A DNA stretch of 18,554 bases, from positions 1 to 18,554 of the forward strand of contig JANXOO010000152.1 of assembly GCA_025353525.1 (NCBI GenBank), written 5' to 3'. This DNA comes from Schlesneria sp. GTDB taxonomy: Bacteria; Planctomycetota; Planctomycetia; Planctomycetales; Planctomycetaceae. Position numbers and translations under genes: made by a program. This document shows, piece after piece, positions 1-17,014 of this stretch (within the stretch, counting starts at the first letter, position 1; each line of letters begins with the position of its first letter). A model generated the notes under the pieces. It ran no database searches, was not told where the DNA came from, and saw only the letters and a list, made by a program, of their open reading frames with translations.

Positions 1-329
1 ATTCGATCGAGGAAATCAAACACTTCGATCATCCGTTGACCCGAGGGGGCTATACCGATTGGCAGAAAGACTGTCGACGAGAGCATTTGCCGTATGGACT
101 CGGAATCGTCGTGCCAATACTCGCGCGTCGCCGCCAAAAACATCAACAGGGCATCGAGCGGAGGAAGTCCGCGCGGGCACAGTCGTTCGACGACGGCGGA
201 CAATTCTTCTCGAAACGCTAACGTGGAGCCGTTAGACCACGCGACAACTTCGCCTTGATCGTCCCATTTCCAGAACGCGCCGATCGGCGATGACAGATAC
301 TCCATCGCCTCGGCCAAGCTACTGTCCAT
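1..329 (-). CDS. N-terminal part of an unassigned companion of the MoxR operon (truncated by window edge)
   Basis: Reading leftwards from ATG at 329, 109 codons are open to the window edge without a stop, so the gene continues beyond position 1. The start overlaps the end of the preceding gene: its TAG (321-319) lies inside codons 3-4 of this one, an 11-base overlap that suggests translational coupling. Visible residues include an aromatic stretch (AFWKWDDQGEVVAWSNG), then FREEL and a leucine-rich helix around RGLPPLDALLMFLAA. There is no signal peptide and no P-loop, so it is probably cytoplasmic. I cannot assign a family. By position it could be another bpX-type accessory protein or the N-terminal region of the beta-propeller or vWA component of a MoxR ternary system. 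That the frame is coding is well supported; the role is inference from the operon. Confidence 0.75.
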   Translation of the reverse strand, partial: MDSSLAEAMEYLSSPIGAFWKWDDQGEVVAWSNGSTLAFREELSAVVERLCPRGLPPLDALLMFLAATREYWHDDSESIRQMLSSTVFLPIGIAPSGQRMIEVFDFLDR

Positions 330-1038
330 CGGTCAGTCTCACTGCCGAGCGTGTGGCATGAACGAATGCTGAATCAGGAATTCGTTCGAACGAACCGTTG
401 GCTGCAAACAGGGCAATCTCGGAAGCGTCAAGTTTCAAAATTTGCCGCACGACGGAGGGGGAAACATCGGGTTCAAAACGCCATCCGGACGGAACGGCGA
501 TCCCGTCACGTTCGACGAGACCCCGACCGGGAATGGGGGGCAACGGCACACCACGTATCAAGACTTTCTTACTCACTGACACGGCAAAACTCCAACGGGT
601 TAGTCGAATCTGCGGTGCCGTGACGGCATAGTCCCGCCACGTCTGCCAGTCGGCATGCCAAATATTCGCGGCGACAATTGCCGCGCTGCGAGCCAATTTC
701 AAGACGACCGTCCCCTCCACGATTGCGGCAAATCCTGCTCGCGGCAGTTCCGGCTTCAACCATTCGATCAAGGGGTGCCATTCTCCCTCGGGAAGTTGAG
801 CACGGGGAACAGTTTCATTCCAGCGCGTCAGCTGTCGATCGAAATGAAGTTGAAACTGTTCCGCATCGGGAATCGAGCGGATCCGAACACTCAACGCCTC
901 GTCGAAGATTCGACCTTGCAGCCACAATACTTCCGCCTGTTCGAGGACTTGCAGTCCAGGCACGAGTCGCAACGCTCCCAGCGCGTTAGCCTCTGCGAGA
1001 CTGAGTTTCACAACCCACGGCAAGTCGGTCGACATCAT
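319..1038 (-). CDS. bpX-type accessory protein of a MoxR ternary system (putative)
   Basis: This 239-residue protein is probably cytoplasmic, with no signal peptide or membrane segment. Its start codon overlaps the ATPase stop in an ATGA (1038-1035), which implies translational coupling. A second Met follows at once (1035), and an AGGAG on the minus strand lies 4 bases before the first ATG and 7 before the second, so the second may be the one used. The sequence has no known catalytic motif. Recognisable blocks are HADWQTWRDYAV near residue 130, a proline-rich GVPLPPIPGRG near 164, a PSGWRFEPDVSP segment near 182 and a C-terminal FVHATRSAVRL. Mixed beta-strand content and the position behind a MoxR ATPase resemble the bpX accessory proteins described with MoxR-vWA-beta-propeller ternary systems. 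I think bpX2-like is most likely, from memory of the family and not from a search. It may act as an adaptor or substrate-recognition component. Confidence 0.72.
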   Translation of the reverse strand: MMSTDLPWVVKLSLAEANALGALRLVPGLQVLEQAEVLWLQGRIFDEALSVRIRSIPDAEQFQLHFDRQLTRWNETVPRAQLPEGEWHPLIEWLKPELPRAGFAAIVEGTVVLKLARSAAIVAANIWHADWQTWRDYAVTAPQIRLTRWSFAVSVSKKVLIRGVPLPPIPGRGLVERDGIAVPSGWRFEPDVSPSVVRQILKLDASEIALFAANGSFERIPDSAFVHATRSAVRLTDGQ

Positions 1039-2207
1039 GCCGCTCCTGTGGGGGGATCAAATTTCGACCAAATCTTGGCGATTTCCTGTTGCAAGTATTC
1101 TCGCTGGTGTGACTGAGCGATCCATTCGCAACGCGAAGCCAGCAAACCGAGTTCGTCGCGCAGTTGAGCCCGTTCAATGTGCGAGAGTGATTGTTCGTCA
1201 AGCCGTCCAACAATTCGTCGCATTTCTTGTGACAGGATTTCGGGATTGGGAGCCGTGGCCTCTTGAGAACGTGGATGAACAGCCTCTCCCTCCGCACCGC
1301 TTCCCGCCGCAATCGCCTGGTTGACCAGCGCCGCAATGACCTCTTGTTGTTCGTCCGAATCCCAGATGTACCTCAGCACCCACAAATCCGAGATGGCGGC
1401 AAGACGTCGCCCGCAGAGGAGCGCGCTGGCGGCGATCATTCTCTGCAATTTCACCGCGCGACGATCCGAGACCTTGATCCCGCTGTGTCGCAAGCGACGA
1501 ACCAGGTCGACGTACGCCGACTGAATGTTTTCTAGTGAGACTTCGTGCAATTGACGTTGCAGTTCCCGCACGCGATCGACGTGCAAGCCGGAAGCTCGCT
1601 CGCGACCCAACAATTCTCGCGACCAACCGGCCTGCAGGACATCCGACAGACGTTCAGTCGGGACGTTGTCACAACGGACCCGCAACAGGAAACGATCGAA
1701 GAGAGCCCCCAGTGCATCGTCCTGAGGCAAACTGTTGCTGGCCCCAACGACCATCAGGGTCGGCAGGGCGATTGTTTCGCGACCCCGGCGAAAGACGCGC
1801 TCGTTTAAGACCATGAGCAAACTGTTGAGGATCGCGCTATTGGCATTCAACAATTCGTCGAGGAAAACAAAATCGGCTTGGGGGAGCATCCCTTCGATAT
1901 TCGTGACCAGATCACCTTCGCGCAAGCGGCGGATATCGAACGGCCCGAACAGTTCGTTCGGTTCTGTGAATCGTGTCAGCAGATAGTCGAACATTTTGCC
2001 GTCCAGACGAACGGCCAGTTCCTGGACCAACGCAGTTTTGGCGGTCCCCGGTGGTCCGAGAATGAACAGATTCTCTCTCCCCACCAGACAAACTCCCAGC
2101 AGATCGACGACTTCATCTTTACCGACGAAACAGGCTTTGATCGGGTTCAAGACATCGTCGTTCAACTGTCGTCCGAGTTCGAACGCGCGTTCTGAGTCAG
2201 AATCCAT
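1035..2207 (-). CDS. RavA/MoxR-type AAA+ ATPase
   Basis: A 390-residue AAA+ ATPase of the MoxR class, close in motif spacing to RavA. Visible motifs are Walker A GPPGTAKT (residues 51-58), a TRFTEPNELFGPFD block (78-91) typical of RavA/MoxR, Walker B FVFLDE (113-118), sensor 1 GASN (155-158) and a probable arginine finger in ALFDRF (R172). The C-terminal half is a helical lid plus a charged tail that ends in the stop overlapping the next gene. MoxR ATPases form hexameric rings and work with vWA proteins to remodel targets, so this is the NTP-driven engine of the operon. I chose ATG 2207 because homology-like sequence begins just after it. An upstream in-frame start at 2345 would add 46 poorly ordered residues, and neither start has a strong ribosome site. 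Class assignment is firm; the biological target is unknown. Confidence 0.9.
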   Translation of the reverse strand: MDSDSERAFELGRQLNDDVLNPIKACFVGKDEVVDLLGVCLVGRENLFILGPPGTAKTALVQELAVRLDGKMFDYLLTRFTEPNELFGPFDIRRLREGDLVTNIEGMLPQADFVFLDELLNANSAILNSLLMVLNERVFRRGRETIALPTLMVVGASNSLPQDDALGALFDRFLLRVRCDNVPTERLSDVLQAGWSRELLGRERASGLHVDRVRELQRQLHEVSLENIQSAYVDLVRRLRHSGIKVSDRRAVKLQRMIAASALLCGRRLAAISDLWVLRYIWDSDEQQEVIAALVNQAIAAGSGAEGEAVHPRSQEATAPNPEILSQEMRRIVGRLDEQSLSHIERAQLRDELGLLASRCEWIAQSHQREYLQQEIAKIWSKFDPPTGAA

Positions 2208-2383
2208 CGGGCGCTTTCTGAGGAGCCTGGGTGTGGAGCCGAATCTGTACGACGCATCTTCGTCGAAATCGCGCGAATGTTCATCGTTACCGGCAAAAAA
2301 AGTGGTCCCTGTGCTTTCGTCCACGGCGAGACGTTGTCGCAACATGCGCGGTCAGCAAGAGAGCGAATTCGAGTCGGGGTCGA

Positions 2384-3085
2384 TCAAGTTCGATGGCCGA
2401 GAAAATCGATCGTGTCGGCTGCGGTTGGTGTCGATTCCAAGACAAAATCGGGGACGAGTTCCGCGTGGATGCCGATGGCGACGCGGACGGCTCGATCGAC
2501 AACAGTATTATTCAATCGACTTCGATCTTTCGCGGCGAAGATACGATCGACGTAGATCCGCGTCAGACATTCGTCGTCCAGAAAGGTTTCGGGTTCGACC
2601 GTTCCCAAGTCGGCGATTCCCACGGACGACAAGGGCCAACGACGGGCAAGTGTTTTCAAACTTCCGATCATCGGATCTTTCGACGACGTGGCTTTCGCCA
2701 GTCGCAACAGATCGGGCATGAACCGCAGTGTGAGGTCCACGGAATAGCAGGCGTCCGGCGACGGAATGACGTTGCAAGGCTCGGTCAGAAGTTTATCAGC
2801 AATTTCGGGATCGGCGTCCCGATACACAAGCAGGCTACTCGCCCGATAGACGGTGAGCGCTCCCCACAACAGTGCCTCGCGGTGAACGGCTGGCGGGATG
2901 CCGGGCAACTCGCGGCGGTACTCGATTTCGAAGTCCCCGAGCACCGAAGCGACCGCATCCGATTCTTCCGGCGACGGTGCGAAAGTCGACCCGTCGCGGC
3001 GAATCGCCTCACCAACGCGAACTCGACCTTCGGCCAACAGTGATTTCACAAAACTCAAGTAAAACATTGGCAGTGACTCATCCAC
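2384..3085 (-). CDS. First gene of the MoxR operon, putative bpX-type protein
   Basis: A 233-residue protein that opens the minus-strand operon. The start is GTG at 3085, supported by AAGGG on the minus strand about 8 bases upstream; the alternative ATG at 3067 has no visible ribosome site. There is no signal peptide, membrane helix or catalytic motif. The N-terminus (FYLSFVKSLLAEGRVRVGEAI) looks like a helix plus a short beta hairpin. A central helical block contains IPPAVHREALLWGA and a VYRASSLLVYR segment. It ends 176 bases before the preferred ATPase start, or 38 bases before the longest possible one. Position and size fit a bpX accessory component (a bpX4-like guess) of a MoxR ternary system, but I recognise the family only loosely. 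A weak candidate -10 (TATGAT, 3115-3110 on the minus strand) lies upstream without a good -35. Confidence 0.68.
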   Translation of the reverse strand: MDESLPMFYLSFVKSLLAEGRVRVGEAIRRDGSTFAPSPEESDAVASVLGDFEIEYRRELPGIPPAVHREALLWGALTVYRASSLLVYRDADPEIADKLLTEPCNVIPSPDACYSVDLTLRFMPDLLRLAKATSSKDPMIGSLKTLARRWPLSSVGIADLGTVEPETFLDDECLTRIYVDRIFAAKDRSRLNNTVVDRAVRVAIGIHAELVPDFVLESTPTAADTIDFLGHRT

Positions 3086-3746: not shown

Positions 3747-5684
3747 ATGCCAGTGCGAGTTCGCCATTTCTGCCGGATCATTTTCGGATTAGTCGTTGCG
3801 GCGAGCTTCGGCATGGTGCCGGTCGTGATGGCAGAAGGTGAACTTCGTTCGTGGGGGGACGCGAAAGGCAAGAACAAGATCAAGGCGAAATTCGTCAAAC
3901 TGGAAGACAATGTTGTTACCCTGGAAAAAGAGGATGGGGACGAGGTCGAAATCGAGTTGAAAAAACTCAGTCCCGCCGATCAGAAATTCGCAACGGAGGC
4001 GGCCAAAGACGGCGGCGACAATCCATTCAAAGCCAAAACAGACGACCCGTTCAAGGTCAAACCCAAAGGCGGGAAAAAGAAATCGGCAGCGGACACCGAA
4101 GACGCCCCCGAAACCGGTGAATTCAAAACATTCAAATTCAAGATCGCGTCGGCAAAACAGATCAAGTCAGGTGCACCGTCGAAGTCCTGGCGGATCGAGC
4201 TACCTGAAGCCGAACCTCAAACGCCGGTTGAACTTGTCGAAAAGACTTCGATTCCGGCAAAAGTCGACTTCTTTGAACGCCTCAACGGAATGGCAATCAG
4301 TCGTGATGTGTCCAATAAAATGGGTGTCATCGGGTACTACCTCGATAAACACGGTCAGGACGCGATTACCCGAGTCGTCATCTGCGATTTGAAATCCGGT
4401 GAATCGAGCAGTCCGGCTTCGACCAAAGGGCAATACGTTCCCGTTGCCTTGCACGACGATGGGCGTCGAATCGTCGCGCGAAGCACGGAGTCCGGATGGG
4501 GGAAAAACGATCGCCTGGAAGTCTGGACGCTCAACGGAGACGAAGTCTCGAAACAATTCACGTGGACGCCATACGATTTCGAGACCGGCGGGAACAGGGA
4601 TGTCACATGGGTCGAATTCCTCGACAAAGATAAGCTGGCAACTTGTAACAGCCTTGGAAAGCTCATTTTCTGGAAGTTTCCCGACATTAAACCGTTGGCG
4701 GTCTTCGAGACCGGTGCACGGACGGTCCCGGCACTTGGTCACGACAGAAAGATGTTGGCCTACAGTGTCGGAAACGCGATTGGCGTGCTCGACATCGCGA
4801 AGCAAAAAGTTCTCGCACAACAGGCAGTCTCGTCCAGCCCGGTTGAAATCAACCTGGAATTCAGCCCGTCGGGAAAACTGTTGGCGGGTGTTTCCCAGGG
4901 CAAGTTACTTGTCTGGGATCTGGTTTCGGGAAAACTTCAAAAGACCATTTCGTGTGACGGCCTGAATTCGACGGGTGGCGTCGTGTTTATTGACGAGGAT
5001 TTCGTTCTGGTCGGGAATTCCAACGTCATCGATCTTCAGAACGAAGTAAAACTGTGGACGTATTCCGGTGCCGAGCACGTTCGGTCGCTGAACGGCACCG
5101 TGTTTTTCGCTGTTTCCCACGGAACCGATCGGAACGGGGCGTTGATTACGGCCCAACTTCCTCATTCAAATGCCAGGGATCTGCTGGAACGAGCGCTGAA
5201 AGATCCGGTTGATTTCGTTCTGAAACCCGGTGCCACGATCCGGATCGACGTAAGCGGAATCGCGGACGCATCACAGCGGGAACGAGTCACACAGGGACTC
5301 ACCAAACAACTTGCTGCAAATCGATGGACCGTAGACCCCAACGGGACACTCGAAGCGGTCGCAACGGTTGAAGGCCCCAAGGAAACGAGGGTCAGTTTCA
5401 GGCAACGCGGCGACTACAAATTCAAGGAGTACACCGTGCGGATCAAACTCGTTTCCGGGAAACAGGCGATTTGGGAGGCGGCGAGAAATAACTCTCCGAA
5501 TTTCGTTCAACTGAAATCGGGCGAGTCGATGGAAGACTATCTGCGAGGGCAAGAAAAACCTTCGTACGAATTCTTTGAACATGTGGTGTTTCCAATGTAT
5601 TTGATGAAACCTGCCAGCGGGACACCACCTGGAAATTCTGTGACGATCGGAACTTCACGAGTGACCGTCGACGGCATTCAATGA
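3747..5684 (+). CDS. Secreted SHD1-domain protein with WD40-like propeller, paralogue 1
   Basis: 645 residues. The start at ATG 3747 is supported by AAAGGG (3735-3740) with a 6-base spacer and by a Sec signal peptide: basic MPVRVRHFCR, a hydrophobic core, and a likely cut after VVMA (residue 29). Next comes an SHD1 domain (about 33-86: LRSWGDAKGKNKIKAKF ... ELKKLSPADQKF), a fold found in yeast Sla1 and in many planctomycetal secreted proteins. It is followed by DNPF and DDPF motifs (NPF at 92-94) in a Lys/Pro-rich linker. Residues about 180-470 contain degenerate WD40-like blades, for example LEFSPSGKLLAGVSQGKLL and a VWDL end, so a beta-propeller is likely. A C-terminal module (about 489-600, with IRIDVSGIADASQRERV) is of unknown function and is shared with the next gene. 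It probably acts outside the cytoplasm in binding or scaffolding. No catalytic residues are visible. Confidence 0.88.
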   Translation: MPVRVRHFCRIIFGLVVAASFGMVPVVMAEGELRSWGDAKGKNKIKAKFVKLEDNVVTLEKEDGDEVEIELKKLSPADQKFATEAAKDGGDNPFKAKTDDPFKVKPKGGKKKSAADTEDAPETGEFKTFKFKIASAKQIKSGAPSKSWRIELPEAEPQTPVELVEKTSIPAKVDFFERLNGMAISRDVSNKMGVIGYYLDKHGQDAITRVVICDLKSGESSSPASTKGQYVPVALHDDGRRIVARSTESGWGKNDRLEVWTLNGDEVSKQFTWTPYDFETGGNRDVTWVEFLDKDKLATCNSLGKLIFWKFPDIKPLAVFETGARTVPALGHDRKMLAYSVGNAIGVLDIAKQKVLAQQAVSSSPVEINLEFSPSGKLLAGVSQGKLLVWDLVSGKLQKTISCDGLNSTGGVVFIDEDFVLVGNSNVIDLQNEVKLWTYSGAEHVRSLNGTVFFAVSHGTDRNGALITAQLPHSNARDLLERALKDPVDFVLKPGATIRIDVSGIADASQRERVTQGLTKQLAANRWTVDPNGTLEAVATVEGPKETRVSFRQRGDYKFKEYTVRIKLVSGKQAIWEAARNNSPNFVQLKSGESMEDYLRGQEKPSYEFFEHVVFPMYLMKPASGTPPGNSVTIGTSRVTVDGIQ

Positions 5685-5756
5685 CCTGTTCGATTCGTGG
5701 AGATCGTGACAATGCGATCCGTTTTGCAGTTCGCAAGTTTGATTGGGACATCGAAA

Positions 5757-7715
5757 ATGAAGCGATTTTTTCTGCTGTTGATCGGGACGGGATTCCTGGC
5801 GTCGTCATTGGCCCTGGCCAACGACGAATTTCGAATGTGGGGCGATGCGAAGGGAAAGAACAAGATCAAGGCGAAGTTCGTCAAACTCGAAGACAACGTC
5901 GTCACGCTCGAAAATGAGGACGGCGACGAAATTGAAGTCGAACTGAAGAAACTCAGTCCCGCTGACCAGAAATTTGCTGCAGAAGCAGCGAAAGAGGGCG
6001 GCGATAATCCGTTCAAGCCTAAGTCCGACGATCCTTTCAAACCCAAACCGAAAACCGATAAGCCATCAGCCGCTTCCAAAGACAACCCGTCGGGTGTCAA
6101 AGAGACGCAAGCGGGTTCCGAAAAGTTTCGGGAGTTGAGTGTCGATTGTTCGTCGGCAGAGCAGCTTCTTCTCGGTGCGTCGTCAGACACGTGGCAAATT
6201 GAAATACCAAAAGCAGACGCCCCGCCAGCAGCATCAAAGCCAAGACCGACTGCGATTGCGCCCGGAACGGAAATGCACGAAACGCTTGTCGGGATGGCGA
6301 TCAATCGCGGAAGTACCGCAAAAATCGCCGTCGTCGGTTTTTCAATCGACAAGCAGGGTAATAATGATGCAAAATCGCGTGTGGTGCTTTGTGACCTGAG
6401 TACCGGAAAATCGGGCACACCCGCTGTGGGGCCGGGGAAGATGGTTCCGATCGCCCTTCACGACGACGGTCGGCAGATTCTGATGCGCCGCGACGAATGG
6501 GGCGGTGGTTTGCATGATCGCCTGGAAGTCTGGGTCCCCAAAGGCAAGAACGTCGCCCGATTGTTTTCATGGAAACCCTACGACACCGACAACGGACGAG
6601 GTCGCGATGTTGTGTGGGCAGAATTCATCGACAAGGATAAACTTGTCACTTGCAGCAACGGTGGAAAAGTCGTTCTTTGGAACTTTCCGGACATCGAACC
6701 GGTCTTCCAGTTTGATATTTCTGATCGTACGGTGCCGGCGCTGAGTCACAATCGCAAATGGCTGGCCTATTTTGCGGGTAACGACATCGGTGTATTTGAT
6801 CTCGAGAAACGTGAGGTCATCGCACAACGGGGCGCACCCGCCAAAATGCATGCGTCTCACATGGCATTCAGTCCGTCATCGGCCCGGCTTGCCTGTCTGA
6901 CACAAGATGGGCTGAATGTTTGGAATGTCGAGACGGGAAAGGTCGACTTCGACATCCCGCTGACGTTCCATCAAACCGGCTGGCTCATCGATTACCCTGA
7001 TGACAATTACGTCCTTGTCGGAAATCATTTGCTCATCGATATCGAAAATCAGTTGAATCTTTGGTCTTATGACGGTGCCAGCCAGGTTCGGTCGGCAGGT
7101 GGGCTGACTTACTTTGCTGTTGTTGACGGCTTCAAAAAACCAGGTGCGATTGTACCAACAGTCCTTCCCCATGCGGGTGCGAAAGATGTTGTGAAAAAGG
7201 CACTGAACGATCCTGAGTTTTGTGTCCTGAGACCAGGGACAAAGGTCCGGATCGATGTCAGCGGAATCCAGGATGCCGCGCAACGCGACCGCGTTTCCCA
7301 GGGACTGAAATTGAATCTGGAGGGAATTGATTGCCAAGGCGGAGCCCAGGGAGCGATCGATCTGGTGGCGTCGGTCGAGGGCCCTAAGGCGATCAAAGTC
7401 AGCTATATCGGCGTCGGGGAATTCAATTTCAACCAGTCAACGGTGAAGGTCCGTTTTGTTTATCAGAACCGAACCGTTTGGGAGTCGATGGCATCGAACA
7501 CGCCTGGATTCGTTCATCTCCCTCCCGGTGAGAACATGGAAGGCTATCTGCGAAAAAGTGAGACGCCGTATTATGACTTTTTCAAGACCGTCCAACTTCC
7601 GAAATATCTCGTCAAACCCAACGCGGCCCGGAACCAGGCAACAGGTCAGCCTCTGCAGCCCGGGGGTTCGGTCTCGCTCGGCACTTCCCGAATTACAGCC
7701 GCGGGACTCCGGTGA
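5757..7715 (+). CDS. Secreted SHD1-domain protein with WD40-like propeller, paralogue 2
   Basis: 652 residues from ATG 5757. I prefer this start to GTG 5697 because it puts a clean signal peptide at the N-terminus: MKRFFLLLIGTGFLASSLALA, then NDEF. It lies 72 bases behind paralogue 1 on the same strand, so co-transcription is likely. The architecture is the same: SHD1 (nearly identical to paralogue 1 from GDAKGKNKIKAKF to LSPADQKFA), DNPF (84-86) and DDPF in a Lys/Pro linker, WD40-like blades in the middle (for example the HMAFSPSSARLACL strand pair and LNVWNVETG), the unknown C-terminal module from about 487 (VRIDVSGIQDAAQRDRV), and the shared ending GTSRITAAG. The linker and propeller diverge far more than SHD1. 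This is a tandem duplication in which the SHD1 part is held under tighter constraint or has been homogenised. Function unknown. Confidence 0.88.
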   Translation: MKRFFLLLIGTGFLASSLALANDEFRMWGDAKGKNKIKAKFVKLEDNVVTLENEDGDEIEVELKKLSPADQKFAAEAAKEGGDNPFKPKSDDPFKPKPKTDKPSAASKDNPSGVKETQAGSEKFRELSVDCSSAEQLLLGASSDTWQIEIPKADAPPAASKPRPTAIAPGTEMHETLVGMAINRGSTAKIAVVGFSIDKQGNNDAKSRVVLCDLSTGKSGTPAVGPGKMVPIALHDDGRQILMRRDEWGGGLHDRLEVWVPKGKNVARLFSWKPYDTDNGRGRDVVWAEFIDKDKLVTCSNGGKVVLWNFPDIEPVFQFDISDRTVPALSHNRKWLAYFAGNDIGVFDLEKREVIAQRGAPAKMHASHMAFSPSSARLACLTQDGLNVWNVETGKVDFDIPLTFHQTGWLIDYPDDNYVLVGNHLLIDIENQLNLWSYDGASQVRSAGGLTYFAVVDGFKKPGAIVPTVLPHAGAKDVVKKALNDPEFCVLRPGTKVRIDVSGIQDAAQRDRVSQGLKLNLEGIDCQGGAQGAIDLVASVEGPKAIKVSYIGVGEFNFNQSTVKVRFVYQNRTVWESMASNTPGFVHLPPGENMEGYLRKSETPYYDFFKTVQLPKYLVKPNAARNQATGQPLQPGGSVSLGTSRITAAGLR

Positions 7716-7775: not shown

Positions 7776-8882
7776 CTACTTTCCTTTGCCAAGGAACGTG
7801 CGGATCGATTCGTAGATTGCGTCCTTGTTTTTGATGTGCGACAGGATCAGGTTTTCGTAATTGCCCGCGACTTTCTTCAATTCACGAATGTAGTCGCCCG
7901 AGCCATACGGACTTTCGACCTGGCCGTAACAGACAAGATTGCAAACCGGCAGAAAATCTTCCTGAAGTGTTTTCAGGCAACTGGTGTTGTCCTCGCCCAA
8001 ATTGTCGCCGTCTGAAAACTGGAAGATGTAGATGTTCCAGTCGGCGGGGGGGAAATCGCGTTCGATGATCTTTCTGGACTCGGTATACGCCGACGAAATG
8101 CGAGTTCCGCCACTCTCGCGAACCCGATAGAACGTGTCTTCATCAACCTCGTGTGCCACTGCATCATGAACGACGTACCGCCGCTGCAGTCCGTCGTATT
8201 GGCTTTTCAGCCACGTGTCGATCCAGAAAGCCTCGGTACGAACAATGACTTTCTGATCGTCGGTCATCGACCCCGACACATCCATGATATAAATGACAGC
8301 CGCGTTTGCCTGCGGTAACGGGACTTCCGTCCAGGACCTGAATCGTTCGTCTTCGCGTGTCGGAACGACAATCGGTGCAGTGGGATTGTATTCGCTCGAC
8401 GAGATCAATCGGCGCAGCGCCCGTTTGTAGGTTCGTTTGAAGTGTCGCAACGAATCGGGACCGGTTTGCCGGATGCTGTTGTATTTCGTCTTGATCGCCC
8501 TGATGGTGTCCTGCCCCTTGGGCTTGATCGCCGGAAGCTGCAATTCATCGCCCAACATTTGTGCCAGTTCTTCGATTGTCAGTTCCGCTTCGCGGATGTG
8601 CTTGCCCGCCTGATCCCCTGGCATCCCTTTGCCGTCGCCGTCGTCGTCGCCCTGGCCGATCGGTTGTCCGGCTTCCCCTTCTCCCTGGCCGACGCCACCT
8701 GAACCTTTTTGACCGTGCCGGAAATGGGGAATCTCGATATTCGGGACGGGAATGCTGACCGTTTCGCGACCTTTACGGCCCAGGACCTCACCATGCGTGA
8801 TGTATTTTTTCAGACCCTGCCGGACCTTGCCCCGCACGATCTCTTTGAATCGCTGGTTGTCGCGGTCGATGGATCGGGTCAT
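7776..8882 (-). CDS. yeaH: YeaH/YhbH-type vWA protein (DUF444)
   Basis: 368 residues, the vWA partner of the PrkA kinase. ATG 8882 (MTRSIDRDNQRF) is preceded by AGGAAG with an 8-base spacer on the minus strand; this beats the longer frame from 8951. The order is an N-terminal DUF444 block with IDRDNQRF and an ETVSIPVPNIEIPHF strand, a Gly/Gln/Asp-rich flexible linker (about 58-92), helices, and a vWA domain with an intact MIDAS start DVSGSM (201-206), a GGTRISSAY loop and SDGDN. The length is close to YhbH of Bacillus (about 390) and below YeaH of E. coli (about 427). It lies 189 bases behind prkA, the standard pairing, and converges on the SHD1 pair with 60 bases between stops. In E. coli this pair is linked to nitrogen starvation and stationary phase; the molecular role is unsettled. 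Confidence 0.93.
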   Translation of the reverse strand: MTRSIDRDNQRFKEIVRGKVRQGLKKYITHGEVLGRKGRETVSIPVPNIEIPHFRHGQKGSGGVGQGEGEAGQPIGQGDDDGDGKGMPGDQAGKHIREAELTIEELAQMLGDELQLPAIKPKGQDTIRAIKTKYNSIRQTGPDSLRHFKRTYKRALRRLISSSEYNPTAPIVVPTREDERFRSWTEVPLPQANAAVIYIMDVSGSMTDDQKVIVRTEAFWIDTWLKSQYDGLQRRYVVHDAVAHEVDEDTFYRVRESGGTRISSAYTESRKIIERDFPPADWNIYIFQFSDGDNLGEDNTSCLKTLQEDFLPVCNLVCYGQVESPYGSGDYIRELKKVAGNYENLILSHIKNKDAIYESIRTFLGKGK

Positions 8883-9071
8883 GGCAGACGCTTCCTGTGG
8901 TTTCGCCGCGACGACCACTGCCGCGACAACAAATTCAAAACTGCCGGGCAAATCCGGGTCAGGCCTTGTTGCCCAATCGAAATACGGGTGGATGTACCGT
9001 CGCCGAAGAACGTCCGGTACACATCACCTTCACGTCAAAGTGTCAAAAGGTTTCGGGTCAGGCAGTCTTCG

Positions 9072-11120
9072 TCAATCGCGTTTTGCGTCTCCCCGAGCGA
9101 AGATGCTGGCGACATATTGCAAAACGTCGGTTGCCGATTCGTCGTTGTAGCCGAAGTTCTTGATCAGGCGACCTTTGACGACGTCGATTTTTTCCTGAGT
9201 GTCCTTGTCGACCACGTTCGACACCAGACTGGTCAGCTTGATTGTGTCCTTCTGATCCTCGAACAATTTCATTTCGAGCGCCTTGTGCAGCCGTTCGTTC
9301 GTCTTGTAGTCGAACTTCTTGCCATCCAGCGACAGGGCTCCGATATAGTTCATGATTTCACGACGGAAATCGTCTTTGCGCGTTTCAGGAATATCGATCC
9401 GCTCTTCAATCGCGCGCATCAGCCGTTCGTCAGGTTGTTCATCCTGGCCGGTGAATTTGTTACGAACCTTTTCACGTTGCGTGTAGGCTTTCACGTTATC
9501 GATATAATTCGAACACAGTCGCATCAGAGCCTCTTCGTCGGCAGCGATCGCACGTTGTACTTCGTTCTTGACCGCGTCGGTGTATTCGTCCTTGACGACC
9601 GAAATCAAACGGCGGTAACCCTCGCGCGTCTCTTCGTTCGGAATCAGCGAATGGTGTTTCAGTCCGTTTTCCAGTTCATTCAGGACCATAAACGGGTTGA
9701 TACACGTTGCTTCGGTGTTGTTGACCAACGCGTTCGAAATCTTGTCCTGAACGTACCGGGGTGAAATCCCCTGCAGGCCTTCGTGACGGGCTTCTTTCCG
9801 CAGTTGCTCGATGTTTTCCGTCGTGAAACCTGGCAGCGTCTTGCCGTTGTAGAGCTTCATCTTTTGTAAGACGGTCAGGCCGTGATGCTTGGGTTCTTCG
9901 AGTCGCGTCAGGACGGCCCAGGTCGCGGCGACTTCCAGCGTATGCGGTGCAATATGCTTGCCGCGAACCCGCCGATCGTTGTAGTCCTTTTCGTAAATAC
10001 GAAGTTCGTGGCCGAGTTTAGTGACGTACGGAATGTCGATTTTTACCGTACGGTCGCGCAACGCCTCCATGAATTCGTTCGATTGCAGCTTACGGAATTC
10101 GGGTTCGTTCGTGTGTCCGAGGATGACAGTGTCGATATCCGTTTGAGCGAACTTTTTCGGCTTGATCTTGTGCTCCTGGGAGGCGCCCAGCAAGTCGTAC
10201 AGGAACGCGACATCGAGTTTCAGAACTTCGATGAATTCGATCATCCCCCGGTTCGCAACATTGAATTCACCGTCGAAATTGAATGCTCGAGGATCCGATT
10301 CGGAACCGAATTCGGCAATCTTGCGATAGTTGATATCACCCGTCAGTTCGGTGCTGTCCTGGTTCTTTTCGTCTTTGGGCTGGAACGTCCCGATCCCGAT
10401 GCGGTCCTGTTCAGACAGGAAGAATCGCCGGACGACGATCCCTTGCAGGACTTTGGTCCAGTCACCATCACACTTTTCCAGTCGCTGTTTGAACAGAAAC
10501 CGGCTGAGCGGACAAACATCGCCGTTGATTTCGACGGTGAATTGCTTATTCCGGTCGCGGCCTTCGTTCAACGACGCGCAGACTTCCTCGCGATGAGCTT
10601 GCGGAATCAGTTGCAGGGGTTCACTGTTCATCGGGTCCCAGGTGATCGACCCGTCATCTTCTTTCCAGCCAAATGAATAGAGGGCTCCTTCCGGCTTGCG
10701 GCTGTAGCGCTGCAGTCCTTTTTTCAGAAGTCGAGCGATCGTACTCTTGGAACTTCCCACCGGGCCGTGCAGCAGCAGCACACGCCGCTCGCTGCCGTAT
10801 TTGAGTGCTGCCGAGCGAAAGACGTTGACCAGTTGCGTCAGCGGCTCGGTCAGCCCGAAAATCGCGTCCTCGCCACCCGTATCAGGATCGTCAAAGAATT
10901 TATAGCGCAACAATCCGTCGCGGCGACCTTCGTCGACGGGATAGGTACCGTACGTCATGATCATATCGTACATTCGCTGGTGCGCAGAACGCGTCACCTC
11001 GGGTGTTGTACGTACGAGATCAAGGTATTCGTCGAATGACCCTTGCCAGTTTTCGTGTCGGTACGCGTCGGCGTTCTGACGGGCTGAAAACTGCTGAAGC
11101 AAACTGAGTCCGGTACCCAT
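9072..11120 (-). CDS. prkA: PrkA AAA+ serine protein kinase
   Basis: 682 residues. ATG 11120 ([11 protein letters not shown]) has AAGGAT about 7 bases upstream on the minus strand; the frame extends to 11210 but the added residues look non-coding. The N-terminal AAA+ domain carries a P-loop GPVGSSKST (119-127). Typical PrkA blocks follow, including [18 protein letters not shown] before it and [24 protein letters not shown] and FMEALRDR after it. The C-terminal PrkA domain ends in the [19 protein letters not shown] region. PrkA is described as a stress and sporulation-associated kinase (with reported Lon-like protease activity in Bacillus). Length matches the family (about 630-690). It is the first gene of the prkA-yeaH unit; spoVR, often third, is not adjacent. 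It is divergent from the fusion permease at 11401, so the 280-base gap must hold promoters for both. Confidence 0.96.
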
Positions 11121-11400
11121 GTGACCAATCCTTGTGACGAATTTCGATCGCGAAATCCGCCGTGCGCAGTTGCGCGCGATTCCGATTCGCGTTCGCGACC
11201 GGATTGCCATCTGCCGTACGTAGCGCGATCGATTCGACGCACCCGTTGCGAGCCTTCAGACGGCCGCCCTGTCCTTGCAATGCAGAAAGTGGTAAAGAAC
11301 AGACCTCGACAGATATTTTGAATTATCACAGTCAGGGCGGTTCCGGCAAGGCCAAAGTTCGAGTCAGAGTGTTTCTTTAAGTATCAGGAGCTTCGGTTTC
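11121..11400. other. Divergent intergenic region between prkA and the fusion permease gene
   Basis: 280 bases with no supportable gene. It must contain the promoters of both neighbours. I see the prkA ribosome site at its left end and AGGAG (11386-11390) at its right. TATTTT at 11314-11319 is A/T-rich, but no matching -35 stands at the usual distance, so I do not call a promoter. Confidence 0.5.
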
Positions 11401-13803
11401 ATGAATTGGCGTAACGTCGTTCTGATATTTCGGCGAGAAGTACTGGATCAATTGCGAGATCGTCGGACACTGTTCATGGTGGCGGTTTTACCGATGCTTC
11501 TTTATCCCCTGCTGGGGATCGGAACGGCTCAAATGACGACGATGTTTGCGGAACTGCCGCGAACAGTCGTCATTCTCGGTGCTGCTCAACTGCCGACAAA
11601 ACCGCTGCTGAACGGAAGCCGTTTTTCAGCAGAATGGTTCCATTCGGCACCCGATTCCGAAAAGCTGAACGTTGTGACCGACCTCGGATCGGAAACCCAA
11701 ATCGATGCCGAATCAAAATCGCAGACATCAGAAACACCCGCTGCCACTCGCGATCACGAGATGATCCAGTCGCGACTTGTTGCCAATGCCAGGCAACTGC
11801 GCGAAGGAATTATCGAACGGCAATCGATCGAATCAGGCATTGCAGCGGCCCGAAGCAATACCCAACCTGTTGATGTTGCGGCGCTCGAGAAACAGCGCGA
11901 TCGACTGAGTGGCGAATTGACGACATTATTCGATCGCAGCGGAATTCAGGTACTGGTCAGCGTTCCCCGTGACTTTGGCCGAAATCTGATGCAGCGGCAA
12001 TCGGAACTCGCACAACGAACGCCGGCTGCGGACGTGTCGACCGACTATGCTCGACCCGTCATTATTCACAACAGTGCCGACGAAAAATCAGAAATCGCTT
12101 ATCGGCGAGTGCGGGATGTCCTGTCGGTCTGGGAACGCTCGATCCTGAAAGAGCAGCTTCGGGAGAGTCAGCTTCCCGAGACATTGATGTCTCCGGTGAA
12201 TGCCGGAGAAATCGATCTTGCCGAAAAGAATCAGATTTCGGCCAATGTCTGGGCCAAGATATTTCCCGCACTGCTCGTCATCATGACACTGACGGGGGCG
12301 TTCTATCCGGCAGTCGATTTGTGCGCGGGTGAGAAGGAACGCGGCACGATGGAGACGCTGTTGATCTGTCCTGCAAAACGGTCCGAGATTGTATTGGGAA
12401 AGTTTTTGACGGTCCTCGTCTTCAGTATGTCGACCGCGATCCTGAATCTGTCGAGTGTCGGGATGACTGGCAAATACATGGCGTCGCTCGCGATGGGCGG
12501 GAGCTCGCGGCTCGGCGATCTCTCGCTGCCACCACTGTCTTCGCTGGTGTGGGTGGTCGTGATCCTTGTTCCTCTGGCAACGCTTTTCAGTGCGCTGTGC
12601 CTTGCTATCGCCACGTTTGCTCGCAGCAGCAAGGAAGGCCAGTACTATCTGACTCCGCTCTTGATGGTGACGTTGGGGCTGACGATGTTCTGTCTGTCTC
12701 CGGGGAATGAAATGCACCCGTTTTACAGTGTGATGCCTGTCATCGGGCCCGGATTGCTGTTGAAGGGTTTACTCAAGGCGAACGGACCTGACACAGCGAT
12801 GTATGTCTATGCCATTCCGGTATTGATGACGTCGATCGGTTACAGTTTGCTCGCGCTGTGGTGGGCGATCGAACAGTTCGGCAGCGAAGACGTACTGTTC
12901 CGCGAGTCCGAACGGTTCGATCTGAGACTTTGGGTCAAGCACCTGCTTCGCGAAAAAGAACCGGTGCCAACGTTCGCCGAAGCGGGCTTTTGTTTTTTGA
13001 TGATCGTCCTGCTGCAGTTTGCGTCGTGGAAGATGTTCCAGATGGCGATTCAGGGTACTCCCAGGGACGAACAGGGTCTGGTCCAGATCCGGATCCTGGT
13101 GATCCAGCAGATCACGCTGATCGCCATGCCCGCTTTGATGATGGGGATACTGCTCACCACAAGCCTGCGTCGCACGTTTTCGCTTCGTTGGCCGGGATTC
13201 GATCGACTCGTGTTTGCGTTATTACTGCCGTTTGCCCTCCATCCGTTGTCACTGGAACTCCTGGTCAGTTTGCAGTGGTTCTTTCCACCTTTACCAGCTG
13301 GAATCGCCGAGACGATGGGGCAACTGAAAACTGTCCGCGTCGAACTCGTTATTGCGGCGTTCGCATTAACACCTGCGATCTGCGAAGAAATCGCTTTTCG
13401 AGGCTTCCTGCTGTCCGGATTTCGCCGAAAGGGGCGTATCCGATTTGCGATTCTGTTGTCGAGTTGTGCCTTCGGGATCATTCATATGATTCCGCATCAG
13501 GTCTTCAATGCAACGCTGCTCGGTTTGATTCTCGGGTCGATGTGCGTTCGAAGTCACAGTTTGCTGCCCGGGATCGCATTCCACTTCGTCTACAATTCGC
13601 TCGGCATCTTGCACGATCGCTTCGGCGACCAAATTCCAACTGAGGGAACCTGGGGATTCCTGTTCAGGATTGAGGACCACTCTTTGCGATATCAATCGGG
13701 ATTGCTGGTACTGCTGGCCGTCGTGTCGATTGGCCTGCTGTACGGCTTGTTGCGTCCATCGACACAGAAGGAAGAGTTTTTGACGAGTGTGGAGCCCGTC
13801 TGA
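11401..13803 (+). CDS. ABC-2 permease fused to a CPBP intramembrane protease
   Basis: 800 residues, start ATG 11401 with AGGAG (11386-11390) and a 10-base spacer. The N-terminal half is a NatB-like ABC-2 permease: a TM1 around residues 22-40 after REVLDQLRDRRTLF, a long extracytoplasmic segment with helical charged stretches (about 60-290), then TM helices around the ABC-2 block CAGEKERGTMETLL. The C-terminal half is a CPBP (Abi) domain with all three motifs: EEIAFR (E662-R667), FGIIH (H695) and HFVYN (H728, N732). These glutamates, histidines and the asparagine are the predicted active site of this protease family (Rce1 relatives). It is probably an inner-membrane exporter with linked proteolysis. 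No ABC ATPase gene adjoins it, which is odd for NatAB-like pairs. The protein is intact, and an inverted repeat follows 16 bases after its stop. Confidence 0.92.
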   Translation: MNWRNVVLIFRREVLDQLRDRRTLFMVAVLPMLLYPLLGIGTAQMTTMFAELPRTVVILGAAQLPTKPLLNGSRFSAEWFHSAPDSEKLNVVTDLGSETQIDAESKSQTSETPAATRDHEMIQSRLVANARQLREGIIERQSIESGIAAARSNTQPVDVAALEKQRDRLSGELTTLFDRSGIQVLVSVPRDFGRNLMQRQSELAQRTPAADVSTDYARPVIIHNSADEKSEIAYRRVRDVLSVWERSILKEQLRESQLPETLMSPVNAGEIDLAEKNQISANVWAKIFPALLVIMTLTGAFYPAVDLCAGEKERGTMETLLICPAKRSEIVLGKFLTVLVFSMSTAILNLSSVGMTGKYMASLAMGGSSRLGDLSLPPLSSLVWVVVILVPLATLFSALCLAIATFARSSKEGQYYLTPLLMVTLGLTMFCLSPGNEMHPFYSVMPVIGPGLLLKGLLKANGPDTAMYVYAIPVLMTSIGYSLLALWWAIEQFGSEDVLFRESERFDLRLWVKHLLREKEPVPTFAEAGFCFLMIVLLQFASWKMFQMAIQGTPRDEQGLVQIRILVIQQITLIAMPALMMGILLTTSLRRTFSLRWPGFDRLVFALLLPFALHPLSLELLVSLQWFFPPLPAGIAETMGQLKTVRVELVIAAFALTPAICEEIAFRGFLLSGFRRKGRIRFAILLSSCAFGIIHMIPHQVFNATLLGLILGSMCVRSHSLLPGIAFHFVYNSLGILHDRFGDQIPTEGTWGFLFRIEDHSLRYQSGLLVLLAVVSIGLLYGLLRPSTQKEEFLTSVEPV

Positions 13804-13819
13804 AGTGTCTGTCGTGCTG

Positions 13820-13865
13820 AAAACGGGGACTGGCACCAGGAAGACTTTGAGCCATTCCCCGTTTT
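13820..13865. terminator. Inverted repeat, probable transcription terminator
   Basis: AAAACGGGGA (13820-13829) pairs perfectly with TCCCCGTTTT (13856-13865), a 10-base stem with a 26-base loop that itself contains CTGG..CCAG. It starts 16 bases after the stop of the fusion permease gene and ends in a T run, the form of a factor-independent terminator. The A run on the other side would make it work in both directions. Confidence 0.65.
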
Positions 13866-14008
13866 GAAACCGGTCAATTTTCTACTACCCGTCGCCTTCA
13901 AAGCCTTCACGAGCAACTGGTCTCCCCGAAAATCCCGGTTTCGGCTATTTCTACCGGTGCTCGAATCATTCGGGCATTATTTCACGCCGATTCCCTGTCG
14001 AGACTATT

Positions 14009-14860
14009 GTGTCTGCTGCATCGCCCCACATTGTTCCCGCTGTTGAGCGTTCGACACCGATCCACTGGATCGGTCGAACCGCGATCGACTTTGTTGTGGC
14101 TGTCGGCGACCTGGTCACTTTTGCCTGCGTGTTGTTTGGCTGGCTGGTTGTCCGTATTCCGCGCGGCCGAGTTCTATGGCCGATTTTGTATCAGGTCGGC
14201 GTTCAAAGCGTCCCGGTCGTATGTGTGACGGGGTTGTTTATTGGCATGGTCCTGGCCGTACAAACGTACGATACCTTGAGCCAACTCCATTTCCAGAGTC
14301 ACATCGGTTCCGTGGTCAACGGATCGCTTGTCAAGGAATTGGGTCCGGTACTCGCTGCGGTGATGCTGGCCGGACGCGTTGGCAGCGCGATCGCGGCTGA
14401 GATCGGCACCATGAAAGTGACCGAACAGATCGATGCGTTACGTGCGCTCGGTGCCGATCCCGTCGCGTATCTGGTCGTCCCGAGGTTTCTCGCCTGCTTT
14501 TTGATGATTCCGGCACTGACGATGCTGGCAGAAGGAGTAGGAATCTTCGGTGGCTGGTTCGTTTCAACTCAGGTCTTCGGGATCAGCAGCCACCTTTTCT
14601 GGACATTTTCCGACCGGTTTGTGTCCGGGTTCGACGTGATTGCAAGCGTTTTGAAGAGTATGAGTTTTGGTGCGGCGATTGCCGTTGTCGCGTGCCATCG
14701 TGGTTTCCATTGCGGTTCGGGGGCAGAAGGTGTCGGACGAGCGGCGACCGAATCGTTCGTCGTGTCGTTCATTGTCATTCTGGCTTTGGACCTGGTGCTG
14801 GCGCTGTTGACGATGCAAGTCATGAAACTGCTGTCAGTGATGGGGATTGCCGTGATTTAG
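14009..14860 (+). CDS. mlaE: MlaE-family lipid ABC transporter permease
   Basis: 283 residues, inner-membrane permease of an MCE/Mla-type phospholipid transporter. Diagnostic blocks are [18 protein letters not shown], the family signature [19 protein letters not shown] followed by [20 protein letters not shown] (about residues 110-150), and the late [15 protein letters not shown] block. About five or six hydrophobic helices are present. I start it at GTG 14009 because no ATG lies in frame near the N-terminus; the ribosome site is weak, so the start is uncertain by a few codons. The gene is 89 bases ahead of the ATPase gene and forms an mlaE-mlaF-mlaD order with what follows. In the E. coli Mla system the permease binds the ATPase on the cytoplasmic side and a hexameric MCE ring on the periplasmic side. 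Direction of lipid flow here is unknown. Confidence 0.93.
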
Positions 14861-14949
14861 TATTTCGACAGATGTTTCGGTGTTTTGATCGATGTCGTCG
14901 CAAGGTGGAATTGAACGAGCGACGATGCGATCCGTCCCTGCAAGATTGA

Positions 14950-15786
14950 ATGATGAACCAGACGATTGCACCAATGCTGCCGCCAACGACGACTACCGCC
15001 TCTGCGGAATCGGTTGCGATCGGGTTGTCACGCGCATCCCGGTCGTTCGGTGGCCAGGCCGTTCTTCGCGATATTTCGATCGACGTTCGCCGGGGTGAAA
15101 CGCTGGTCCTGATTGGAGAGAGCGGGTGCGGGAAGAGTGTTACAACGAAGTTGCTCGCAGGATTGCTCGAACCGACCTCGGGTCGCGTGCTGTGGGACAG
15201 ACGACCGGTTGTCGACCGTACTGCCGGCGAATTGCAACGCGACCGGTTGCGGTTCGGCTATCTGTTTCAGGGAGCGGCGTTGTTTGACAGTATGAATGTC
15301 TTCGAGAATATCGCTTTCGGGCTGCGAGAAAACGGGACTGAGACGGAATCCGCGATCCGGTCGATCGTTTGCGAACGACTTCGCGAAGTGGGCCTCCCTG
15401 AATCTGTCGGTTCCAAAAAACCGGGCGACCTGTCCGGCGGCATGAAGAAGCGGGTCGGACTGGCGCGCGCCCTTGCAATGTCGCCGGATATCGTGTTTTA
15501 CGACGAACCTACAACGGGACTTGATCCCGTCATGAGCGGCGTGATTGACGAATTGATTGTTCGGACTCAACAGCGGCGGCAAGTGACAAGTGTCGTGGTG
15601 ACTCATGATATGACGACGGTCCGCCGCGTGGCCGATCGCGTTGTCATGCTCTATCCACTGTCGAGGCTGAACCCCGATGAACCACAGATAGTGTTTGAAG
15701 GGACGAGCGACGAGGCATTCGACAGCGACGATCCTCGCGTCGCACAATTCGTCCGGGGCGAAGCAGGCTCGCGCATGATGGAATGA
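14950..15786 (+). CDS. mlaF: MlaF-family ABC ATPase
   Basis: 278 residues, ATP-hydrolysing subunit of the MCE lipid transporter. Walker A GESGCGKS (56-63), Q-loop [12 protein letters not shown] (Q107), signature LSGGMKKR (161-168), Walker B IVFYDEP (181-187), D-loop GLD and switch His (H219) are all intact. The [15 protein letters not shown] version is characteristic of MlaF-type ATPases. In-frame TGA ends at 14949, so ATG 14950 (or the next ATG, 14953) is the furthest possible start; a roughly 20-residue Thr/Ala-rich extension precedes the ABC fold. No good ribosome site is visible. Next is the MCE gene, 61 bases on. Confidence 0.95.
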
Positions 15787-15847
15787 GTCCCCTGGTTTTA
15801 TGCGAATCGGGTTAGATGAGGCGAATCGAGGGTTGGGAAGGGAAACA

Positions 15848-17014
15848 ATGGCCACGGAACGGCAGCTTCAATTTCGCGTCGGATTGCTGGTACTTGTCGC
15901 CACTTCGGTGTGCGCGGGTCTGATCTTCCGGTTTGGCGATGTGCGATACGTTTGGACGAAGCGGTACGCCGTGACAATTGAACTCGACAATGGAGCGGGT
16001 CTTTATCCGTCGGCTCCGGTTCAACTGAGCGGTCTTGTGATCGGGTCGGTGCGAACGGTCGGACTGAATCCGGTCGGCGGAGTCAACGTCATCATCGATA
16101 TTGAAGAAGGAATTCGTCTTCCGATCGACAGCCGGGCACTGGTTTCGCGTTCGCTGTTGGGCGAGACGGCCGTCGAATTCATGCGGGGTCGCAAGTCCGA
16201 TTTTTTGGCTCCCGGAGGTCGAGTGCGAGGTGTCTCCGCACCCGATCCGCTGGTGATGTTGCAAAGGCTGGAATCGCGTACGCTGGATGCATTAAGTGAA
16301 TTCGGTGAAACCAGTCAGGAATGGCGCGAGCTGGCTGCCAACCTTAATAAACTGATGGATACGAAGCAGGGCAAACTGGATCAGGTTGTCGAACGGACGG
16401 CCGAATCGCTGCACCAGTTCTCGATCACCATGAAAAATGCCAATCAGATGATCTCCACGGCGAATCAATTTGTATCAGACCCTGCGACACAGCAGGCCAT
16501 GTCAGAAACTTTGGCGGCGCTGCCAAAACTGGTCAGTTCGACAAGGTCGACGATTGAGGAAACTCGCAAAACGGTGGCAGCGTCGCGGGATGTACTGGAC
16601 GGGATGAATCGCAATCTTGTCAACATGTCACAAGTGACGGAACCGCTCGGTAAACGGGGCGAGCAAATGGTGGCCAGGTTCGACAGCAGCATGACAAAGA
16701 TCGATCAGTTATTGACCGAACTGAACACGTTTGCCAAAACCGTCAATCAGAAAGAGGGTTCGATCCACAAATTCGTTTCCGATCCGTCACTGTATGACCA
16801 ACTGGTCCGATCATCTGAATCGATGAGTATTCTGATGAAGCATCTCGATCCGATCATACGGGATCTTCGCGAATTCAGCGACAAGGTGGCCCGGAATCCG
16901 GAACTGCTGGGTATCGGCGGCGTCGTGCGTCCAGGGAACGGCTTGAAGGACGAGGAGCGCCGACCGGGTAAAGCGAGCGGATCGCAAAAGCCACTGGCGC
17001 GTGGCAACAATTAA
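15848..17014 (+). CDS. mlaD: MlaD-like MCE-domain protein with long coiled tail
   Basis: 388 residues from ATG 15848, chosen over ATG 15800 because GAAGGGA lies just upstream and the signal-anchor starts cleanly (MATERQLQFRVGLLVLVATS). A single N-terminal TM helix (about 9-28) is followed by an MCE domain (about 38-115: IELDNGAGLYPSAPVQLSG, GSVRTV, LVSRSLLGETAVE). The C-terminal 250 residues are helical with many Gln/Asn/Ser/Thr and leucines, likely an extended coil. MlaD of E. coli has only about 183 residues, so this protein is long and more like the larger MCE subunits that span toward the outer membrane. MCE proteins form hexameric rings that conduct lipid between membranes. No mlaB, mlaC or mlaA gene is in the window. 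Confidence 0.93.
   Translation: MATERQLQFRVGLLVLVATSVCAGLIFRFGDVRYVWTKRYAVTIELDNGAGLYPSAPVQLSGLVIGSVRTVGLNPVGGVNVIIDIEEGIRLPIDSRALVSRSLLGETAVEFMRGRKSDFLAPGGRVRGVSAPDPLVMLQRLESRTLDALSEFGETSQEWRELAANLNKLMDTKQGKLDQVVERTAESLHQFSITMKNANQMISTANQFVSDPATQQAMSETLAALPKLVSSTRSTIEETRKTVAASRDVLDGMNRNLVNMSQVTEPLGKRGEQMVARFDSSMTKIDQLLTELNTFAKTVNQKEGSIHKFVSDPSLYDQLVRSSESMSILMKHLDPIIRDLREFSDKVARNPELLGIGGVVRPGNGLKDEERRPGKASGSQKPLARGNN

Follow-up and report, generated by a model that had tools for sequence, protein, structure and literature searches.

We analysed a stretch of 18,554 nucleotides from Schlesneria sp. (the window), which is the whole of contig C1161 in its assembly (G000). Its first 3,085 bases carry four reading frames that almost certainly belong to a MoxR-vWA-beta-propeller ternary system, truncated by the end of the contig. 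The system itself is already known, and the window holds a further member of the one described in Pfam and by Kaur et al. (2020, PMC7159879). A comparison with relatives suggests three features of the family that go beyond the description in the subsystem passages of that paper, namely an altered metal-ion-dependent adhesion site (MIDAS) in the vWA domain, a division into two halves, and fast-changing propellers. Our best reading, which we hold with moderate confidence, is an accessory ATP-driven remodelling machine, a MoxR-vWA ternary system of the beta-propeller type.

The four frames and their missing continuation

The source assembly comprises 6.28 Mb over 1559 contigs with a completeness of 89%. 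By bpMoxR, its closest named relatives are uncultured Schlesneria metagenome-assembled genomes, with a top identity of 76%. The features of the operon are as follows.

2384..3085, minus strand: bpX4, 233 amino acids (Pfam PF19920, E = 9e-52, above the cut-off)
1035..2345, minus strand: bpMoxR, a MoxR-clade AAA+ ATPase, 436 amino acids (PF20030, E = 1.5e-96, 322 bits, above the cut-off)
2034..2057, minus strand: Walker A, GPPGTAKT, residues 97-104 of bpMoxR (alignment; GPPGTAK[ST] in 80 of 80 named relatives)
1854..1868, minus strand: Walker B, VFLDE (in FVFLDE), residues 160-164 (alignment; pattern in 80 of 80)
1734..1745, minus strand: sensor 1, GASN, residues 201-204 (alignment; pattern in 79 of 80)
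319..1038, minus strand: bpX2, 239 amino acids (PF19918, E = 1.1e-56, above the cut-off)
3-329, minus strand, still open where the contig ends: N-terminal 109 residues of a bpX0/vWA/propeller/bpX1 protein (PF19915, E = 8e-10, above the cut-off)

These E-values put the family assignment of the four frames beyond chance. On the minus strand, the frames of 1-3085 are read in the order bpX4, bpMoxR, bpX2 and the start of bpX0 (X4, MoxR, X2 and the vWA gene in the following). An earlier note, made from the sequence alone, had described four same-strand frames with an ATGA overlap, an 11-base overlap and close spacing, and the coordinates confirm it: the overlap is 4 bases between MoxR and X2 (1035-1038, reading ATGA on the minus strand) and 11 bases between X2 and the fourth frame (319-329), and X4 is separated from MoxR by 38 bases, or by 176 if MoxR starts at ATG 2207. 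Since relatives align from about ATG 3067 in X4 and about ATG 2207 in MoxR, the annotated starts of both may lie too far upstream, with these two codons as the alternatives. The note had further predicted a ternary system with bpX companions, which the four matches bear out; the two companions in particular match bpX4 and bpX2, and no metabolic or chelatase family was found for them. In structure models, bpX4 is predicted to be all-helical (mean predicted local distance difference score, pLDDT, of 92.8) and bpX2 to be alpha+beta, with an N-terminal part that resembles a ferredoxin-like fold.

The RavA/MoxR-type ATPase with intact Walker A, Walker B and sensor 1, also described in that note, is upheld by an alignment of 22 sequences, in which the motifs of bpMoxR are invariant or nearly so. 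The protein also has DRFLLR in the Arg-finger region and SDRR in the sensor 2 region; among the named MoxR proteins, DRF is found in 80 of 80 and SDRR in 79 of 80. The P-loop GPPGTAKT falls within the pattern GXXXTAK[ST] and is close to the GXXXTAKS variant, which is frequent in the beta-propeller subsystem according to Kaur et al. (2020, PMC7159879).

The fourth frame is no small protein: 54% identical to residues 1-91 of a relative of 959 amino acids, it begins a protein of about 950 amino acids. In two relatives the fourth gene encodes 944 and 959 amino acids, and its product has bpX0 at the N-terminal and bpX1 at the C-terminal end; the next gene (X3 in the following) carries bpX3 and encodes 937 or 979 amino acids. 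The vWA genes of the first locus set, picked by size and with one wrong pick excluded, are 907-1172 amino acids long. The vWA and propeller genes had been expected beyond position 1; the rest of the vWA gene does lie beyond the contig end, but this is a single gene that starts inside the window, and besides the predicted propeller of the vWA protein a second one is predicted in the third component, X3. Profile matches to propellers at the ends of the vWA protein and of X3 in relatives are weak but consistent (best E 1.1e-4 and 5.3e-4).

X3 of the same genome is found on contig C286 (403-3060), where it is 45% identical to the 979-residue relative from residue 106 onwards, with a bpX3 match above and a TPR match below the cut-off. 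Thus the third component with TPR and propeller is present on C286, the propeller being seen by profile in relatives. This contig has 3162 bases and ends inside X3 at about residue 106, leaving an open frame of 884 amino acids; its end (C286, locus L082, 3031-3162) repeats part of X3 in inverted orientation, probably as an assembly artefact. By these matches, the assembly contains X4, MoxR, X2, the N-terminus of the vWA protein and the greater part of X3, and together the window and C286 fit the conserved gene order.

Gene order and its two halves

The Pfam cut-off for bpMoxR is unspecific, since 12 of 14 control genomes pass it. Ordinary MoxR proteins score about 60 bits and a middle class about 119-216 bits. 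We searched 149 genomes, our own included, and counted a bpMoxR as strong above 290 bits. It was found in 35 genomes, in one copy each, which together with a partial copy in G013 gives 36 loci. The earlier note had proposed looking for conserved gene order in other planctomycetes, and it is indeed conserved: X4-MoxR-X2-vWA-X3 is complete on one strand in 27 of the 36 loci, and the order is kept in other phyla too. Five loci (L072, L073, L074, L075 and the window) end at most about 210 bases from the downstream contig end, and four (L043, L049, L056 and L057) are incomplete within longer sequence. At L075 (G013) no X4 was found in 3.7 kb upstream, and the MoxR frame is without its usual N-terminal part. 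An open reading frame of 809 amino acids at L056, picked by position, was excluded from the vWA rows and the gene-order counts; the members of the 67-protein vWA alignment used below were picked with a profile that had included it. From its first residues we take it to be a glycogen debranching enzyme. Furthermore, four loci (L076 and L078-L080) carry divergent bpMoxR-like genes of about 125-216 bits, beside which our profiles detected no bpX companions; they are perhaps part of other ternary systems.

For a second set we scanned GTDB genomes with the bpMoxR alignment and kept the best 80 of 553 confirmed stretches, which is not a census. As the two sets (L041-L080 and L084-L163) overlap, we do not sum their counts. 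By submitter titles, the 80 named loci are from Planctomycetota (34), Bacteroidota (30), Verrucomicrobiota (11), Walliibacteriota (2), Acidobacteriota (1) and Krumholzibacteriota (1), with one unlabelled. Besides planctomycetes, cultured Chitinophaga and Hymenobacter have the system. The order is complete in 59 of them, and 13 of the 21 incomplete loci are cut on the side of the missing gene. X4 was undetected at L103, L123, L136, L152 and L163 despite at least 1.5 kb of upstream sequence; because the profiles were built on planctomycetes, a diverged X4 may escape detection. L145 has MoxR-X2 only, and L102 and L161 have MoxR only. The genes overlap at 26 of 52 X4-MoxR junctions, 51 of 69 MoxR-X2, 49 of 67 X2-vWA and 40 of 58 vWA-X3 junctions, counted with start codons that a script selected. 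X3 is spread over at least two frames in L064 (G014) and L150 (Chitinophaga pinensis YS-16), which is either genuine or a sequencing error. In 108 loci, no sixth gene recurs in different phyla. The bpMoxR tree requires 6 phylum changes against a minimum of 5, and descent therefore looks mainly within phyla.

Some genomes split the unit. In G012, X4-MoxR-X2 stands at L057 and an intact vWA-X3 pair elsewhere (L243); in G052, the vWA gene (L246) is separate from X4-MoxR-X2 (L056), and we found no X3 next to it; and in G020 a lone MoxR stands at L043, with a vWA frame at a contig end elsewhere (L247). G007 keeps the vWA gene from about residue 97 together with X3 (L244) and has no strong bpMoxR, and in G011 fragments of vWA and X3 remain over about 0.5 kb (L245). 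Thus X4-MoxR-X2 and vWA-X3 can occupy separate loci, and vWA-X3 can remain alone. Among the 15 genomes of the genus, a strong bpMoxR is found in 8, a partial one in G013 and remnants in G007 and G011; a single vWA query was unmatched in G003, G006, G008 and G009, and G003 has a partial bpMoxR match of 125 bits. The DUF444-PrkA block that adjoins the operon in the window is conserved in 11 congeners (PrkA 88-96% identical). By tblastn, neither the bpX genes nor the SHD1 pair that also lies in the window are beside this block in the 11 congeners, six of which have the system elsewhere, so the position of the operon is not fixed.

The altered metal site and sequence change

In the relatives, the D-x-S-x-S motif of the MIDAS is replaced by D-x-[GTS]-h-[RK]-x-W-G-x-x-R, with Arg or Lys in 63 of 67 named vWA proteins. 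The first Asp is kept in 66 of 67. The first Ser position holds G in 34, T in 21, S in 9 and other residues in 3, and the second holds R in 46, K in 17 and others in 4; W-G follows in all 67 and R in 63. Across both overlapping sets (101 rows) the counts are 100 for D, 95 for R/K and 101 for W-G. The second MIDAS Asp is expected directly after the conserved T of a later strand, where Asp is found in 10 of 68; in 29 of 68 an Asp stands two positions further along. According to Kaur et al. (2020, PMC7159879), one or both Asp are missing in a subset of the vWA proteins, and our identification of the region as a vWA domain relies in part on that description. The vWA domain is probably metal-independent, and we infer that the Arg or Lys stands in for the cation. 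Should the site hold no metal, the usual view that clients are captured via the vWA metal site would not apply to this branch.

Compared with ordinary vWA domains of relatives, the vWA-like region gave an in-register profile match with E = 0.0078 over 104 columns (match probability 5%), and a longer region gave E = 0.021. Six control comparisons with MoxR, X4 and X2 gave E = 0.18-0.61. Matches to ivWA were found in 16 of 48 proteins at E<=1, the best being 0.0049. The best-conserved block of the vWA protein directly precedes the vWA domain (residues 271-300 in L055, mean majority fraction 0.81) and is, judging by its conservation, a candidate docking site for MoxR.

We calculated the ratio of nonsynonymous to synonymous substitution (dN/dS) between four genomes of the genus (G001, G002, G004 and G005). 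It is 0.04-0.07 for MoxR and 0.15-0.27 for X4, X2, vWA and X3; for comparison, PrkA and DUF444 have 0.01-0.03 and an ABC permease 0.11-0.14. All five genes are under purifying selection. In 60-column windows of vWA and X3 we computed no dN/dS above 1, with some windows valueless owing to synonymous saturation. The peak windows, with dN/dS up to 0.87 and the lowest identity, are vWA columns 481-540 and 601-720 and X3 columns 241-300, 721-780 and 841-900. The fastest-changing parts among the four are the propellers and the X3 linker, and this linker is clearly hydrophobic, as a clear membrane segment, in 5 of 50. In pairs with G004, the synonymous divergence (dS) is 0.98-1.56 for vWA and X3 and 0.69-0.82 for X4 and MoxR, with X2 intermediate, and a second calculation agrees in trend. 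This fits a swap of the vWA-X3 half, in one genome and at high divergences.

Kaur et al. (2020, PMC7159879) treat these systems as subsystem 4, whose named families, bpX0-bpX4 and bpMoxR, are all present here. Their passages on it also share with our system the P-loop variant, a vWA protein that in relatives has additional domains at both termini and a probable propeller, a third component with TPR and propeller, and helical and alpha+beta companions, which only some of these systems have. On the other hand, the MIDAS is altered almost throughout in the relatives examined and not in a subset without one or both Asp, the propellers and the X3 linker are the variable parts and not just the N-terminal region of the third component, and a clear membrane segment is present in only 5 of the 50 linkers. 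The FtsH-type ternary systems (subsystem 3 in PMC7159879) resemble ours in their divergent vWA, to judge by the weak ivWA matches, and in a similar P-loop, but no FtsH was found in the scanned window proteins or in the vWA and X3 proteins of two relatives. RavA-ViaA likewise pairs a MoxR-clade ATPase with a vWA partner gene; here, however, the ATPase is far below the RavA cut-off, bpX and propeller parts are added, and the MIDAS is altered. The fixed five-gene unit, the nearly family-wide altered MIDAS and the two halves offer concrete residues and gene pairs to test.

A proposed mechanism, its rivals and the neighbouring genes

Hexameric rings that remodel their partners are the general model for MoxR proteins. 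MoxR would accordingly form such a ring, and bpX4 and bpX2 would serve this engine as its dedicated subunits or adaptors. The vWA protein would dock by way of the highly conserved block that directly precedes its vWA domain, and it would no longer bind clients via Mg2+, the Arg or Lys beside the kept Asp replacing the cation. It would form the recognition half together with X3, the two meeting each other or a target through their fast-changing propellers, and ATP hydrolysis would remodel or release X3. The hexamer and remodelling model for MoxR-vWA is also that of Kaur et al. (2020, PMC7159879). We consider ATP-driven remodelling of the vWA-X3 pair reasonably likely. The role would be accessory and not core; a response to conflict or stress is the likeliest single guess, with a conflict role itself falling somewhat short of even chances.

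Several points weigh against this reading. The vWA fold of the fourth protein is, from sequence, supported by weak matches, and a PDB profile search of the vWA-like region gave no meaningful match. The vWA body was not found in the assembly (a single query, the 959-residue relative, matches the window genome with its residues 1-91 only, in the window), so that an intact operon is unproven in the window genome. Orphan MoxR genes (L043, L102 and L161) and the orphan vWA-X3 of G007 mean that parts can persist alone. Finally, we found no experiments on this system in the open-licence PMC literature, nor any use of the bpX names in this sense by title among the publications listed in our literature search.

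One rival is a conflict or anti-phage system, in which the MoxR-vWA pair sets a threshold and X3 acts at the membrane as the effector, its variable part containing a membrane segment. Such a role was proposed for MoxR-vWA-beta-propeller systems by Kaur et al. (2020, PMC7159879), and patchy presence in the genus, with losses and two remnants, agrees with it, as do the fast-changing propellers and X3 linker. However, the 118 proteins compared, out of 262 eligible flanking ones, gave few PADLOC matches (at E<=1e-15, 7 models with one protein each, without a control set), the MoxR tree follows the phyla, and phages are unmatched, with a single plasmid match (Hymenobacter yonginensis, 32% identity over 62%). 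No computed dN/dS exceeds 1, and the small share of clearly hydrophobic linkers speaks against a membrane effector. We regard it as possible, at less than even odds.

A chaperone for the assembly or quality control of a specific cellular complex, RavA-ViaA-like and unrelated to conflict, seems to us about equally plausible. Purifying selection, an intact ATPase, a mainly vertical tree and flanking Pfam families that are varied and largely metabolic (25 of 148 listed) would all suit a chaperone, which on the other hand would be expected neither to be patchy and repeatedly lost nor to have companions whose sequences diverge much faster than those of the neighbouring PrkA and DUF444; moreover, no recurring neighbour in the 108 loci offers itself as a client.

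A more specific version of the remodelling machine is doubtful. It would consist of two cartridges, the conserved X4-MoxR-X2 driving an exchangeable vWA-X3 that is separately moved, lost or swapped, with Arg or Lys replacing Mg2+ and the two fast propellers choosing the target. That dS in G004 is higher for vWA-X3 than for X4-MoxR would then reflect a recent swap.

That the operon is decaying in the window genome, the cut vWA frame being a broken gene and not a contig end, is improbable. The remnants in the congeners G007 and G011 show that decay does occur, but X4, MoxR and X2 are intact here, the vWA frame is open to the first bases of the contig, C286 breaks off inside X3, and the two ends match what is expected for one assembly gap over the rest. 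A metabolic set of RavA-ViaA or Mg-chelatase type, suggested by residual RavA and Mg_chelatase matches of the ATPase, has next to no chance and is already contradicted by the Pfam and NCBIfam matches, with 143.9 bits for the NCBIfam RavA model NF010054 against a cut-off of 681, a chelatase match of 38 residues round the P-loop only, and companions that match only bpX4 and bpX2.

Beyond the operon, the plus strand carries two tandem paralogues at 3747-7715 with SHD1 (SLA1 homology 1) and weak beta-propeller matches. As this pair is also absent beside DUF444-PrkA in the 11 congeners, it shares the variable stretch of the operon. The conserved pair itself lies on the minus strand at 7776-11210 and encodes a DUF444/YhbH-type protein and a PrkA kinase. 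The pair is another case of an AAA+ gene, unrelated to the first, that neighbours a protein in which D-x-S-x-S is intact. Further along, at 11401-17014 on the plus strand, follow an ABC permease fused to a CPBP protease (NF041647), an MlaE-type permease, an ABC ATPase and an MCE protein.

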